From: Desulfotignum sp.
Lineage (GTDB): Bacteria > Desulfobacterota > Desulfobacteria > Desulfobacterales > Desulfobacteraceae
Length of the DNA: 64,000 nucleotides
Reading direction: 5' to 3'
Assembly: GCA_021737695.1 (NCBI GenBank)
Contig: JAIPDL010000004.1
Coordinates: forward strand, 1-64,000
In this document: piece by piece, positions 23,257 through 29,950 of the stretch
How positions within the stretch are numbered: the first letter of the stretch is position 1
Layout: each line of letters begins with the position of its first letter
Notes under the pieces: generated by a model
The model's input: the letters and a program-made list of their open reading frames with translations, nothing else
Told to the model about the DNA's origin: nothing
The model's database searches: none
Made by a program: the position numbers and the translations under genes

Positions 23257-24231
23257 TTATCCGGACAATTCCAGTTTCAACGCAATGGAATAGAGCTTTG
23301 CCAGCCGTGTGACCATTTTGACCATTTCCTGGGAATAAGGGGTTGCCGGATTGGCAAGGATCAGCAACTTTCGGGGTCGGTGGTTGACGGGCAACGGAAT
23401 CGCCAGAATGCCATGTATCGGAATATGGCCCACAAGGAATCCGGGTGCGGGGGAATCTTTCGGCGGCTGAGTGGTGAAAATCGGCTTTCCCGTGTTGACG
23501 GCTTTTCCCAGAGAGTCGTGAATACCGTCCCTGCCGTCCGGGGACAGGGTCAAGGTCAAAGACGCAAGACCGCATTTTTCCGGATAGACTTGTTCGAAAC
23601 CCAGTTGAACGGTCGAATGAGAGGTTTCGGAAATCCTGGCCATGAATGCGTTGGCGCTTTGGGTCAGGTCGGCAGCAGCGGTCAGCACGATCCGGGAGAT
23701 CCGGCTGTAATCCGGGTCCTGCTGGGTGATGGCATCCGTGATGGCATCCATTTCCCGGGTTACCCGCAGTTGCCAGCCCAGTTCTTTTTCTGTCTGTTTC
23801 TGGGTGGTGATGTCGGTGAAAATCAGGGACAGGGCCTGGTGATCTGAAAAATCGGTTTCCATCACAGATGCCTTGATCCAGGTTCTGCCGCTGACTGCCT
23901 GGATGCGCAGATTTACCTGGGAAGCGCTCTTCATATCCTGAAGACCGTACTCGCTTTTTTCCATGATTTTCAGGTCTTCAGGATCCAATAGCGTGAAAAA
24001 GTCTCTGCCGGTCAATTCCTGTTCGTCAAACCCCAGTATCCCCGCAGCCACCCGGTTGATATCCACAATCCTTCCTATTTTGTCCAGGGTGAGATACCCC
24101 ATGGGAAGAGAATCGTAATTCCATGGGCTGCGGTCCCTGAGAAAATCACACAAATCTGCCGATTCTTGTGACGGTGGCTTTCCGCTGGTCAGTGAATTGT
24201 TTTCCCAAAACTCCGGCATGCTGACAGTCAA
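23257..24231 (-). CDS. PAS + GAF-like domain signalling protein without output domain
   Basis: PAS region DSLPMGYLTLDKIGRIVDINRVAAGILGFDEQELTGRDFFTLL; C-terminal GAF-like region. TTG start at 24231 supported by AGGAGG 7-8 nt upstream. Confidence 0.8.
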   Translation of the reverse strand: MTVSMPEFWENNSLTSGKPPSQESADLCDFLRDRSPWNYDSLPMGYLTLDKIGRIVDINRVAAGILGFDEQELTGRDFFTLLDPEDLKIMEKSEYGLQDMKSASQVNLRIQAVSGRTWIKASVMETDFSDHQALSLIFTDITTQKQTEKELGWQLRVTREMDAITDAITQQDPDYSRISRIVLTAAADLTQSANAFMARISETSHSTVQLGFEQVYPEKCGLASLTLTLSPDGRDGIHDSLGKAVNTGKPIFTTQPPKDSPAPGFLVGHIPIHGILAIPLPVNHRPRKLLILANPATPYSQEMVKMVTRLAKLYSIALKLELSG

Positions 24232-24481: not shown

Positions 24482-24499
24482 TGCACAGATCTGTGTGCA
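24482..24499. promoter_or_regulatory. Dyad site 1, TGCACA-GATCTG-TGTGCA
   Basis: 18-bp dyad; a second copy of the same 6+6 arrangement lies at 24596. Another TGCACA (24461) / TGTGCA (24480) pair overlaps it. Confidence 0.65.
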
Positions 24500-24562: not shown

Positions 24563-24640
24563 CCGGCTTCTGTTTTTCGTGCCACCTGAATCAGGTGCAC
24601 ATGAAGATGTGCAAACCGGAAGAAAAAAAACAGAAGCCGG
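24563..24640. repeat. Perfect 15-bp inverted repeat with 48-nt loop enclosing dyad site 2
   Basis: CCGGCTTCTGTTTTT (24563-24577) and AAAAACAGAAGCCGG (24626-24640). Confidence 0.9.
24596..24613. promoter_or_regulatory. Dyad site 2, TGCACA-TGAAGA-TGTGCA
   Basis: Same TGCACA-N6-TGTGCA layout as site 1 (7-bp arms TGCACAT/ATGTGCA). Confidence 0.65.
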
Positions 24641-24709
24641 TTGGGGTATTAAATAATTTTTTTCTTTTATTTAAATAGGTTATATAAAATTTTGATCGAT
24701 TTTTAAACC

Positions 24710-24725
24710 TGGTCCAGGCCTTGCT
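24710..24725 (+). promoter_or_regulatory. Candidate sigma-54 promoter of the micropeptide ORF
   Basis: TGGTCCAGGCCTTGCT vs TGGCACGNNNNTTGCW: TGG and TTGCT exact, correct GG/GC spacing. Predicted +1 near 24736, about 55 nt before ATG. Confidence 0.65.
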
Positions 24726-24790
24726 ATGGGGTATAGGTAAAGATAATTGAAGGATGCAAATCATACCAAACCCCAAAAAGGAGACCTGAA

Positions 24791-24886
24791 ATGAAACATC
24801 TGTGGATCAACGTACTGGTTATCGGAACGATCGTAGCTGGATATGCATTGCCGGCACTGGCAGTAGGCGGAGGGGGACCTTATTAG
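24791..24886 (+). CDS. 31-aa putative secreted micropeptide
   Basis: ATG...TAG translation MKHLWINVLVIGTIVAGYALPALAVGGGGPY. RBS aaaaaggagacctgaaATG. Signal peptide with ALA|V cleavage site. Too short for the supplied ORF track. Confidence 0.75.
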   Translation: MKHLWINVLVIGTIVAGYALPALAVGGGGPY

Positions 24887-24890
24887 TCAT

Positions 24891-24911
24891 ACAAATTAAT
24901 AAATAATTTGT
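24891..24911. repeat. 8-bp inverted repeat just after the micropeptide stop codon
   Basis: ACAAATTA-ATAAA-TAATTTGT. Confidence 0.7.
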
Positions 24912-24927
24912 ACAGACAAATTCTGAA

Positions 24928-24967
24928 AACAGCGGCGCAGCCGGATAACGGCCGGGCCGCTGTTTTT
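24928..24967 (+). terminator. Rho-independent terminator after the micropeptide ORF
   Basis: AACAGCGGC...GCCGCTGTT with inner GCCG/CGGC pairing, then TTTTT. Confidence 0.85.
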
Positions 24968-25051: not shown

Positions 25052-26680
25052 ATGAAAGGTTTCCAGACCCTGTGTGGTATCATCCTGGGGTTGTTCCTGA
25101 TTGGATGCATTGCGGCCGGCTGCTCCGGCCCTGAAGAAGTGGATCATCCCGGAAATGAGCCGGAAAGCACGGCCCCGGTCCATGGCGGAATATACCGGAT
25201 ACCAATGCCCAGCAATCCAGCGACCCTGGACCCGGCCCGGGTCAAGGACCAATATGGCGCTGCGGTTGTCAGGCAGGTGTTTGACGGCCTGGTCCGGTTT
25301 GATTCCTATCTGACCATACTGCCGGCCCTGGCCCGGACCTGGCAGGTGGAGGCGGATGGCCGTGTGTACCGGTTTACGCTGCGAGAAAATGCCCGGTTTC
25401 ACAATGGTGATCTTGTGACAGCGGCGGATGTGGTTTTTTCCATCTCCCGGCTCCTGCGGCTGAGTCCAGCGCCGTCGGTTTTGCCCCATCTGATGATGAT
25501 CGTCGGGGCGGAAGCGTTCCGGAATCAGGACCAGGACCGGGTCGAGGGGTTGACGGTCATTGATCCGCACACAGTGGAAATTCGCCTGGTTTCTCCCCAT
25601 ATGCCACTGCTTACCGCCTTGGGCATGCATGAAGTGGCGATTTTGCCCCAAAAAATTGTGGAGGACTCAACGTCCGAATTTGCCAGACATCCCGTGGGAA
25701 CCGGGCCGTTCCGGTTTGTGACATGGGACCCGGACCGGTCCATCGATCTGGAGCGGTTTGACGATTATTTCGGAGAGACCGCCCTGCTGAAAGGGATTCA
25801 TTTCAAAATTTATGCCGAAGGACAGGATTCATCAGAACTGTCGGATTTTTTGGCAAAGAATATTGACGAAATGGCGGTCTACGGCGATGTCAGGGAAAAA
25901 CTGGGGGATCAGGCAGATGTGCAGTGGTTTCACCGGCCGTCCCTGAGCCTGTTTTTTTACGGCATGAACTGCGATCACCCCCACCTGACGCATCCGGAAT
26001 TCCGCAAAGCCCTGTCTGCTGCCATTGACCGGACCGCTTTTGTGACCCAGGTTTATAACGGGCAGTTTGATATTGCCAGGACCATTCTGCCCCCGGGCAT
26101 GCCCGGATACAGCCCGGCTTCCCCGCTGCCGGACAATGACCCGGATCTTGCCCGGCAGCATCTGGACCAGGCCCTGGCAACCGGTCTGGATCAGGTGCCG
26201 GAACTGGAGCTGGTGTCGGCATTCCAGACTTCCCGGGTGGCGGCTGAAATGGAGATGATCAAAGCGTTCTGGGCGGAACTCGGGGTTCACGTGCGGGTCC
26301 GGTACATCACGGACTGGACCGAGTTTGAAACCTATATCCGGTCGGATGCCGTGCAGCTCTACCGATATGCCTGGTTTGCTGACATGCCTGATCCGGACAG
26401 CATCCTTCATCCTTTGTTTGCATCCGATTCCCCCAACAATTTCATGCAGTATCATGATCCGGTCACGGATACCCTGCTCAGACAGGCCCGGGAAACCATC
26501 GATCCCGTGGCCCGGGCCGAAATTTACCGGGACACTGAAGCGCGCATCACCACGACCCTGCCATTGATTCCCTTGTTTTACATGAGCGTGGACCGGGTGT
26601 ATCAGCCCGATGTCAGAGGGATTCAGGTCAGTGCCCTGGGAGCCCATGCCATGCCCCTCAACCAGGTATGGGTGGATTGA
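25052..26680 (+). CDS. Family-5 (peptide/nickel type) ABC extracellular solute-binding lipoprotein
   Basis: Lipobox FLIGCIAAGC; GGIYRIPMPSNPATLDPARVKDQYGAAVVRQVFDGLVRFD; VYRFTLRENARFHNGDLVTAADVVFSISRLL. RBS agggagag. Confidence 0.93.
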   Translation: MKGFQTLCGIILGLFLIGCIAAGCSGPEEVDHPGNEPESTAPVHGGIYRIPMPSNPATLDPARVKDQYGAAVVRQVFDGLVRFDSYLTILPALARTWQVEADGRVYRFTLRENARFHNGDLVTAADVVFSISRLLRLSPAPSVLPHLMMIVGAEAFRNQDQDRVEGLTVIDPHTVEIRLVSPHMPLLTALGMHEVAILPQKIVEDSTSEFARHPVGTGPFRFVTWDPDRSIDLERFDDYFGETALLKGIHFKIYAEGQDSSELSDFLAKNIDEMAVYGDVREKLGDQADVQWFHRPSLSLFFYGMNCDHPHLTHPEFRKALSAAIDRTAFVTQVYNGQFDIARTILPPGMPGYSPASPLPDNDPDLARQHLDQALATGLDQVPELELVSAFQTSRVAAEMEMIKAFWAELGVHVRVRYITDWTEFETYIRSDAVQLYRYAWFADMPDPDSILHPLFASDSPNNFMQYHDPVTDTLLRQARETIDPVARAEIYRDTEARITTTLPLIPLFYMSVDRVYQPDVRGIQVSALGAHAMPLNQVWVD

Positions 26681-26718: not shown

Positions 26719-28584
26719 GTGAAGAAACCGGCATCTTTCCCCTTGCGCTACCGGTTTATGCTCATCAGCTCATTGATGCTGATTCTGCTTCTCGGGACCC
26801 TGGCCCTGGTGCTGGGGTCGCTTCAGACCCAAACCATTCAGGGCCGCATTGAAAAACAGGGGCTGGATATCGCCCGGAACCTGGCCGCCGTATCCAGAGA
26901 TCACTTCATCACCTACAATTATGTGGCGTTAGAAAAGCTGGCCAACCAGGTGGTGGATATTTCCGATATCCTGTATGTGGTATTTTATGACAAAGAGGGC
27001 CGGGTTGCCGGATACAGCCGTCGACCGGATCTCCAGAACCGGATCCTCACGGATGAGATCAGCCGGAAAGCGATGGATGCGACAACCCCCCTGGTGGTGA
27101 CCCAAAATCAGAAAAATTCCGGTCAACCGGTCCTGCATGTTGCGGTCCCGGTGATCCTGGCGGATTCCCAGGCCCGCTGGGGAACGATCCGGGTCTGTCT
27201 GTCCCTGGACCTGATGCAGCAGCAGATCCGGCAGACCCGATGGATCATCGGTGTGCTGGGGGTCATTGCTCTGGGAGCCGGGATACTGATATCCAACTGG
27301 ACGGCCCAGCGGGTGACCCGGCCCCTGGAAAAGCTGGCCGCCACCACCATGGATGCGGCCCGGGGCGATCTGACATTAAAGATTTTTGTCAACACCCGGG
27401 ATGAAGTGGAAATCCTGGCAGCCAATTTTTCATTCATGATCCAGGAAATTCTGGCCCAGAAGAAAAAGCTGGAGGAACAGCTCCAGGAGATCCGGCGGTG
27501 GCAGCAATACACGGAAAAAGTGCTGGTCACCATGGGGGACGGGCTGTTGGCCATTGACATGGCAGGAAGGGTCACCACAGTGAACCCGGCGGCCCGGCGC
27601 ATTCTGGAAATACCGGATGAGCGGCCTGTCCGGTCAAAGCCGGTATGGGATCTGATGGATCCGGGATCCCAGATGGCCGGGTATATCCGGGAGGTACTGG
27701 CGGATCCGTCTGTGGAGAAGCAGCGGGAGCTGGGCGCGTATGCCGGAAAAAACGAGCCAGTGATTCTGGTCAATGCCGGGGTCCTGGAAACCCGGCACAA
27801 AGCGTCCCGGGAGATCATTTTTTCTTTGACCGACATCACCGCGTTAAAGCGCCTGGAGGCCCAGGTCCGGCAGGCCCAGCGGCTGGCGGACTTAGGGATT
27901 CTGGCTGCGGGTATGGCCCATGAGATCCGCAATCCCCTTTCCGCCATCAAAACCTTTGTGGCTTTGCTGCCTAAAAAACTGGAAAAACCCGGATTTCTGG
28001 AAAAGTTCCAGCAGACCGTTCCCAGAGAGATCAACCGGCTCAATACCCTGATCGAAGAGATGCTGGAGCTGTCCCGGCCCCCCCGTTACCGGCTCAAGCC
28101 CACAGAGATCAGTGCCCTGGTTACCCATTGCACCACATTGCTGGAAGCGAATTTCAACGGCCGGGATATTTTTTTTCAGGCAGATCTCCCGGACGATCCC
28201 GCATGGGTCCAGGCAGATGCGGACCAGCTGGAAAAAGCATTTATCAACCTGCTTCAGAACGGGGCCCAGGCCATGCCCGGGGGCGGCACCCTTCAGGTGT
28301 CGGTTTCCCGGGATCAGGACCAGGTGGGGTTGGAATTCAGGGATACCGGGCAAGGCATGTCCCCGGAAATGGTCGACAACATCTTTAATCCGTTTTTCAC
28401 CACCAAGGCCAAAGGCACGGGCTTAGGCCTGGCCATCACCCATAAGGTGATCACGGAACACGGGGGCCGGATCAGTGTGACCAGCCGTGAGCACGAGGGG
28501 ACCTGTTTCACGGTTCGCCTGCCGGGGATCGGTCCGGCCCGTCTGTCCCTTCCTTCTGATCCGGCATCAGATCCAGGGACTTGA
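26719..28584 (+). CDS. Membrane sensor histidine kinase (periplasmic sensor, HAMP, PAS, HisKA, HATPase)
   Basis: Two TM segments, HAMP (NWTAQRVTRPLEKLAATTMDAARGDLTLKI), H-box MAHEIRNPLSAIKTF, ATPase GTGLGLAITHKVITEHGG. GTG start. Confidence 0.93.
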   Translation: MKKPASFPLRYRFMLISSLMLILLLGTLALVLGSLQTQTIQGRIEKQGLDIARNLAAVSRDHFITYNYVALEKLANQVVDISDILYVVFYDKEGRVAGYSRRPDLQNRILTDEISRKAMDATTPLVVTQNQKNSGQPVLHVAVPVILADSQARWGTIRVCLSLDLMQQQIRQTRWIIGVLGVIALGAGILISNWTAQRVTRPLEKLAATTMDAARGDLTLKIFVNTRDEVEILAANFSFMIQEILAQKKKLEEQLQEIRRWQQYTEKVLVTMGDGLLAIDMAGRVTTVNPAARRILEIPDERPVRSKPVWDLMDPGSQMAGYIREVLADPSVEKQRELGAYAGKNEPVILVNAGVLETRHKASREIIFSLTDITALKRLEAQVRQAQRLADLGILAAGMAHEIRNPLSAIKTFVALLPKKLEKPGFLEKFQQTVPREINRLNTLIEEMLELSRPPRYRLKPTEISALVTHCTTLLEANFNGRDIFFQADLPDDPAWVQADADQLEKAFINLLQNGAQAMPGGGTLQVSVSRDQDQVGLEFRDTGQGMSPEMVDNIFNPFFTTKAKGTGLGLAITHKVITEHGGRISVTSREHEGTCFTVRLPGIGPARLSLPSDPASDPGT

Positions 28585-29950
28585 TTTTCTGAATCAGGGT
28601 GTTTCTGTGAATGCCCAGCACCTGGGCGGTCTGGGTCTGGTTCCAGTGGCAGCCCTTCAGTGCCCGCAGGATATAATGCCGTTCAAAGGTCTGGCGGGCC
28701 TGGATCAGGCCTTTGCTCTCCCGGGCCTCTTCCGCGGCTTCCCGGCCGGAATCGGTATGGAACAGCAAATCAAAGGGCAGGTCTTTTTCATCAATGGGCT
28801 GCTGGTCGGACCCCAGCACCACCAGCCGCTCCATCAGGTTTTCCAGTTCCCGGATATTACCCGGCCAGGGATAGTCCTCCAGCACGGTCAGGGCGCCGGG
28901 GGTGATGCCGGTGATATGTTTGTTCATCCTGCGGTTGAACCGGTCCAGAAAATATCCGGCCAGCACAGGCACATCCCCTTTTCTTTTTCGCAGAGGCGGC
29001 AGGTCCACGGGGACCACATTGAGTCTGAAATACAGGTCATCTCTGAACTCTCTGGTTTTGATCATTTCATCCAGCCGGGTGTTGGTGGCGGCGATGATCC
29101 GGATATCCACCTTGATGGTCCGGTTGCCGCCCACCCGGGAGAATTCCCGTTCCTGGATGAACCGCAGCAGTTTGGCCTGGAATTCCGGTTTGAGGCAGCC
29201 GATTTCATCCAGAAACACCGTGCCCTGGTGGGCAAACTCGAATTTTCCCGTGGTCTGGCGGTATGCCCCGGTAAACGACCCTTTTTCATGGCCGAACAGT
29301 TCGGCTTCCATCAGTTCCGAGGGAATGGCCGCGCAGTTGATGGCCACAAACGGATTTTCCTTCCGAAGGCTCAAATTATGGATGGCCCGGGCGATCAGTT
29401 CTTTGCCCGTGCCGCTTTCGCCGGTGATCAGCACATTGCTGCCCGATCCGGCCACCTTTTCCATGAGCTGGAACACGGCGGTCATATGGGGAGACCGGGT
29501 GATGATTTTCGGCTCAAATGCACCGGCCGCCACCTGGGAGCGGTGATACCGGACTTCTCTGGCCAGGCGCTGCCGGTCCACGATTTTTTCCACCCGGTTC
29601 AGGATGATCTCATGGTCAAACGGCTTGGTGATATAGTCATAGGCTCCCAGTTTCAGAGAGTCCGTGGCTTCCTGGGCCCGGTCAACCGCTGACACCATGA
29701 TGACGTCCAAATCCGGGTCAATCTGCTTGATCTGTTTCAAAGTTTCAATACCATCCATTTCCGGCATCACAATATCCAGAAAGATCAGATCAAACCCGTG
29801 GGAACGGGTTTTTGAAAGCGCTTCAGGGCCGCTTTTTGCGCAGGTGACATCATAATCATCTTCCAGAATTTCCTTGAGTGCATCCCGGATGGCTTCATCA
29901 TCATCCACCACAAGAATCTGTACCGGGTTGGGATCGTCCTTGATATCCAC
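28508..29950 (-). CDS. NtrC-type sigma-54-dependent response regulator
   Basis: Receiver domain (ILVVDDDEAIRDALKEIL; D at FLDIVMPEMDG), AAA+ GESGTGKELIARAIHN, GSFTGAYRQT (GAFTGA loop), Fis-type HTH (WNQTQTAQVLGIHRNTLIQKIK). Confidence 0.96.
   Translation of the reverse strand: MDIKDDPNPVQILVVDDDEAIRDALKEILEDDYDVTCAKSGPEALSKTRSHGFDLIFLDIVMPEMDGIETLKQIKQIDPDLDVIMVSAVDRAQEATDSLKLGAYDYITKPFDHEIILNRVEKIVDRQRLAREVRYHRSQVAAGAFEPKIITRSPHMTAVFQLMEKVAGSGSNVLITGESGTGKELIARAIHNLSLRKENPFVAINCAAIPSELMEAELFGHEKGSFTGAYRQTTGKFEFAHQGTVFLDEIGCLKPEFQAKLLRFIQEREFSRVGGNRTIKVDIRIIAATNTRLDEMIKTREFRDDLYFRLNVVPVDLPPLRKRKGDVPVLAGYFLDRFNRRMNKHITGITPGALTVLEDYPWPGNIRELENLMERLVVLGSDQQPIDEKDLPFDLLFHTDSGREAAEEARESKGLIQARQTFERHYILRALKGCHWNQTQTAQVLGIHRNTLIQKIKSLDLMPDQKEGTDGPDRSPAGEP

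Follow-up and report, generated by a model that had tools for sequence, protein, structure and literature searches.

A conserved, putatively exported micropeptide encoded with a binding protein, a kinase and an NtrC-type regulator forms a candidate peptide signalling loop in Desulfobacterales

The exported peptide signals of Gram-positive bacteria, such as Phr/CSF, SHP and the enterococcal pheromones, are made as tiny Sec precursors that yield a short C-terminal or signal-derived peptide, to which an OppA-type solute-binding protein (SBP) binds; the enterococcal sex pheromones are fragments of the signal sequence. These peptides are imported and then bind cytoplasmic receptors. MgrB, which acts on PhoQ, and DbfQ, which acts on DbfS, are small exported products whose genes lie next to a two-component system or are controlled by one. 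DbfQ belongs to the PepSY-domain proteins (PMC12714742). In Vibrio, the LuxP-LuxQ-LuxO relay combines a periplasmic binding protein, a membrane kinase and a regulator working on a sigma-54 promoter, LuxO belonging to the group I class of sigma-54 enhancer-binding regulators (PMC10162802). We analyzed a 64,000-nucleotide stretch of a Desulfotignum sp. contig (JAIPDL010000004.1, positions 1 to 64,000; hereafter the window) and found a locus that shares the layout of the Vibrio relay. Its SBP is a family-5 protein and not a LuxP-type receptor, LuxP being a sugar binder; its signal would be a ribosomal peptide that the cassette itself encodes, whereas that of LuxPQ-LuxO is AI-2; and its proposed target is the peptide's own promoter instead of the Qrr RNAs. 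Unlike in the Gram-positive systems, a kinase accompanies the SBP, and we propose that the peptide is read at this kinase through the SBP. Unlike the loci of DbfQ and MgrB, the cassette includes an SBP, and its mature product would have 5-7 residues. Our literature search, limited to open-access papers, found no published description of the peptide or the cassette, which looks like a previously undescribed Gram-negative peptide signalling loop. The features of the locus are as follows.

24482-24499, no strand: distal palindrome TGCACA-GATCTG-TGTGCA, a candidate enhancer to which the sigma-54 activator would bind, conserved upstream of the peptide
24596-24613, no strand: proximal palindrome TGCACA-TGAAGA-TGTGCA, candidate enhancer site 95 nt before the promoter
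24709-24725, forward strand: -24/-12 (sigma-54) promoter CTGGTCCAGGCCTTGCT, with transcription expected to begin close to 24736
24778-24783, forward strand: ribosome-binding site AAGGAG, called from the sequence and kept in most homologues
24791-24886, forward strand: 31-codon micropeptide gene, predicted signal sequence 24791-24862, tail VGGGGPY 24863-24883
24926-24967, forward strand: intrinsic terminator of the peptide transcript (fold -28.8 kcal/mol, z = -5.9 against shuffles)
25052-26680, forward strand: family-5 solute-binding lipoprotein of the peptide type, candidate receptor (PF00496, E 1.3e-81), adjoining the peptide in relatives
26719-28584, forward strand: histidine kinase with sCache_3, HAMP, PAS, HisKA and HATPase domains (domain profiles; conserved synteny)
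28508-29950, reverse strand: NtrC-type response regulator with receiver, sigma-54 activation AAA+ and Fis-type HTH domains (domain profiles; conserved in the locus)

The initial annotation had described the 31-aa ORF (translation MKHLWINVLVIGTIVAGYALPALAVGGGGPY*) as carrying a strong ribosome-binding site, a good terminator within 45 nt and a transcript of about 230 nt with no other ORF, and each of these statements held. AAGGAG lies 7 nt before the ATG, the stem-loop begins 39 nt past the stop and the predicted transcript spans about 24736-24967. The stem-loop contains internal mismatches and was passed over by a simple terminator scanner, but was recovered by folding against shuffles; three relatives have terminators at the corresponding position, with z between -3.8 and -9.4. 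On inspection, the predicted cleavage after ALA in the window peptide agreed with the -3/-1 rule, and an A-x-A or V-x-A signal peptidase I motif was seen in nearly all homologues. Homologues vary at residue +1 (V, C, S, G, T, Y, R, E or Q) and thus lack the constant cysteine of a lipobox, for which reason a lipoprotein reading of the micropeptide was rejected. The neighbor upstream of the locus varies among relatives; in the window it is a divergent PAS-GAF protein (23257-24231, reverse strand) that lies upstream of the palindromes and might share them.

That the ORF is a real gene was borne out by comparison between genomes. In a protein search of 39 genomes the best other match had an E-value of 3e-14, and pN/pS within groups was 0.06-0.40, which indicates strong purifying selection on the coding sequence. 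Homologues occur in more than 30 Thermodesulfobacteriota genomes. By profile search the micropeptide was detected in 21 of the 86 genomes of the window's family (19 clear matches at E < 1e-14, the divergent G085 and a contig-edge fragment in G023) and, at the level of the order, in 29 genomes out of 391, with E-values down to 5e-19; additional members lie elsewhere in the phylum, beyond the order. A scan of the GTDB representatives of bacteria and archaea, with patterns that reach close relatives only, returned sulfate reducers and other deltaproteobacterial records only, including Desulfobacula, Desulfobacteraceae, Desulfobacterales and the isolate Desulfoferrobacter suflitae, and one record labelled just Proteobacteria. 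The homologues follow the consensus MKKLxVxLFVIGVLVAxYAxPVLA before the predicted cleavage site and xGGGGP after it, often with an extra Y, W, F, C or G. The micropeptide matched no Pfam or NCBIfam profile. Phr family membership was rejected: Phr_nterm (TIGR04429) gave 12.1 bits for one relative against a cut-off of 25 and no match for the window peptide, and the conserved cassette contains no Rap partner.

Several genomes carry 2-3 tandem copies of the micropeptide gene, each with its own ribosome-binding site, and the copies differ from one another by anything from no bases to 28 of 90. At a locus in G125 (L084, C171:9241-9543) there are two extra peptide copies, MRKLIVQITVVGITLLATAMPLLAGGGGGPW and a variant, with no SBP, kinase or regulator of the cassette type close by. 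One of the three roles offered by the initial annotation, that of a regulatory leader (attenuator) of the SBP gene, is argued against by the tandem copies. The terminator between the micropeptide ORF and the SBP gene is what such a leader would have; on the other hand, conservation of the signal sequence and tail is at the protein level, a sigma-54 promoter of its own precedes the gene, no antiterminator was seen, and the locus matched no Rfam family and is thus not a known riboswitch or leader. We consider an attenuator very improbable.

The conservation of the signal sequence bears on the two other offered roles, a signal and a membrane micropeptide. As mean identity over 13 loci, with the SBP lipobox located by pattern, conservation was 0.64 for the signal sequence of the micropeptide versus 0.33 for the SBP's own signal and 0.58 for the mature SBP. 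By this comparison the micropeptide's signal sequence is conserved beyond the needs of a disposable export tag, and this may reflect a membrane role of the precursor, a pheromone derived from the signal sequence or the involvement of a special protease. An uncleaved or periplasmic micropeptide could modulate the SBP or kinase directly as feedback while the kinase senses another peptide or stress. This live rival fits the excess conservation of the hydrophobic segment and the position of the candidate regulator sites at the peptide's promoter, and small periplasmic proteins that regulate kinases exist (PMC12714742). It agrees less well with the Pro at -4 and the A/V-x-A before the tail, which suit a signal peptidase I site, with a conserved GGGGP tail followed by the stop, with a partner that includes a peptide-type SBP and not a kinase alone, or with tandem copies, which suit a diffusible product; we regard it as unlikely, though the most serious of the alternatives. 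Similarly, the signal could be a fragment of the signal sequence freed by intramembrane proteolysis, the GGGGP tail merely fixing cleavage. Residues 8-24 are indeed highly conserved, but the tail is under equal constraint within genera and its type tracks the SBP tree, and we think a signal-sequence fragment improbable. The comparative evidence most favors the remaining role, that of a signal, on account of selection on the amino acids, the tandem copies, the gene's own sigma-54 promoter and terminator, and its association with the SBP, kinase and activator.

We then compared the SBP with characterized peptide binders. Besides its PF00496 match, which places it in the SBP_bac_5 peptide-binding family, its closest PDB match was OppA (8are, E 1e-40). 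In OppA and DppA a conserved Asp pairs with the alpha-amino group of the peptide, and an Arg of DppA binds the carboxylate of dipeptides (PMC9967938, PMC12136057). The equivalent of OppA Asp419/DppA Asp408 was kept in 34 of 35 SBP orthologues, while that of DppA Arg355 was absent from all 35, which have A, G, N or T instead. The Asp of the window SBP lies in an AWFAD motif. The kept Asp and the missing DppA-type Arg suggest that the SBP binds peptides of more than two residues, which would fit a tail of 5-7 residues. At the deep splits of the SBP tree the tail type varies with the SBP (GGGGP; D, N; A; GGGY/W), an agreement that co-inheritance alone could explain. The AlphaFold model of the SBP had a pLDDT of 69.5 and was left out of our reading. 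In G085 (L077, C367:40520-47678) the divergent peptide has the tail ASASGSSYP in place of GGGGP, and four SBP copies in tandem are followed by one kinase and regulator; this arrangement is possibly one of signal and receptor diversification.

Comparison of neighbors gave the order peptide, family-5 SBP, kinase at almost all loci whose contig was long enough. The regulator, which combines a receiver, Sigma54_activat and HTH_8 and is thus an NtrC-type activator, lies either convergent downstream or divergent upstream, and its linkage with the SBP, kinase and peptide is kept. The exceptions were contig ends, G758, where no regulator of the NtrC cassette type was found within 10 kb, and the extra peptide copies in G125. 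D. suflitae DRH4 has the complete cassette: peptide MKKIAVQLFVWAAVIATYALPVLACGGGGR, SBP and kinase, a regulator placed upstream, the promoter and the palindromes as a pair. Of the 391 genomes compared across the order, 30 had the cognate SBP (at least 49% identity), and 29 of those also had the peptide; in the thirtieth, G075, 12 bp separate the SBP from the end of its contig. None of the other 361 genomes had the peptide. Five genomes had remote paralogous SBPs (33-36% identical) that also lie beside kinases and keep the same Asp motif, and upstream of these we found no small exported ORF, -24/-12 element or TGCA-N10-TGCA. The peptide therefore goes with the cognate SBP clade and not with SBP-kinase pairs generally. 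A family-5 SBP next to a histidine kinase without the micropeptide occurs at L244-L249, part of a wider class of SBP_5-kinase pairs.

The initial annotation had caught no more than a glimpse of the conserved cassette of receptor, kinase and activator, and had missed the sigma-54 promoter and both palindromes. The element at 24709-24725 has the correct GG-N10-GC spacing and fits YTGGYAC-N5-TTGCW, and RpoN is encoded in the genome. YTGGYMC-N5-TTGCT was found 77-118 nt before the ATG in 35 peptide copies, and nearly every copy has a -24/-12 promoter and TGCACA-N6-TGTGCA palindromes upstream and a terminator downstream. Measured from the ATG, the palindromes of the window's family stand at about -200 and -300, and in other families they form a close pair at about -280/-300; the two in the window precede the -24/-12 element by about 110 and 225 bp. 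The exact palindrome occurred 1-12 times per genome in all but one of 25 genomes, whereas a reversed control pattern gave 0. The two in the window are the only exact copies in its genome, and in its family the canonical palindrome is almost confined to peptide loci. In G083 (L135:3979-5089) a radical SAM gene of 242 aa that lies away from the peptide locus has a palindrome and a sigma-54 promoter in front of it, which may be chance or a real second target in that single genome. In the window's family the palindrome has hardly any target besides the peptide, which would suit a small antimicrobial or envelope-acting peptide that is the output of a two-component system sensing something else. Since the conserved cassette contains no immunity or export gene and its linkage with a peptide-type SBP is strict, we give an output peptide little credence.

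In the families f3, f17 and f22, extra palindrome copies precede genes for very large exported proteins and sensor kinases, several with a sigma-54-like element downstream of the palindrome. The large proteins have FG-GAP, carboxypeptidase-regulatory (CarboxypepD_reg), cadherin, teneurin-like, RHS and HINT domains and are encoded at the following loci.

L125, L129, L131, L134, L126, L130 and L122 (f3, f17, f22): palindrome with giant exported protein

For those families, though not for the window's genus, this suggests giant exported proteins as an output of the circuit.

Taken together, these genomic comparisons make it probable that the micropeptide is a self-produced signal in an autoinduction loop that runs through the SBP, the kinase and the NtrC-type regulator. 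Sigma-54 RNA polymerase would produce the mRNA encoding the micropeptide alone, Sec would export the precursor, and signal peptidase I would cut after ALA to leave the 5-7-residue tail (here VGGGGPY). The family-5 lipoprotein would capture the tail by its free amino terminus and present it to the histidine kinase with its Cache domain, in much the way that LuxP serves LuxQ. The phosphorylation state of the regulator would be set by the kinase, and the regulator would bind TGCACA-N6-TGTGCA upstream of the -24/-12 element and activate the promoter of the peptide itself; genes for the giant secreted proteins would be further targets of the regulator in other families. Comparison between genomes establishes the genes, the sites and their linkage, while we infer the molecular contacts of this scheme, the sign of the feedback and release of the peptide beyond the outer membrane; the loop may be cell-autonomous instead of cell-to-cell. 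We counted in favor of the autoinduction loop the co-occurrence of peptide and cognate SBP, the SBP-kinase-regulator linkage kept despite relocation of the regulator, the conserved promoter and palindromes (the latter unique to this locus in the window genome), the peptide-type residues of the SBP together with the lack of a permease gene between SBP and kinase in the window, the paralogous pairs that are without peptide, promoter and palindrome alike, the tandem copies, and the tail type tracking the SBP tree. Against it we counted the high conservation of the signal sequence relative to both parts of the SBP, and a palindrome that in the window's family sits almost solely at the peptide's own promoter.

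Short-peptide signalling is conventionally seen as a Gram-positive trait. A review reported no conventional signal synthases or receptors in non-Desulfovibrio Gram-negative sulfate reducers (PMC5187520). The cassette could represent a new class of Gram-negative quorum sensing, a suggestion that we make tentatively, in which a ribosomal, unmodified, GGGGP-tailed autoinducer acts through an SBP-kinase-NtrC relay and sigma-54, with giant FG-GAP/teneurin-like/RHS/HINT secreted proteins as output in some families. The micropeptide is absent from normal annotation and exemplifies the genes that annotation length cut-offs drop. Because ligand, receptor, kinase, activator, binding site and promoter are all predicted within one compact, self-contained cassette, peptide communication in these bacteria becomes directly testable.
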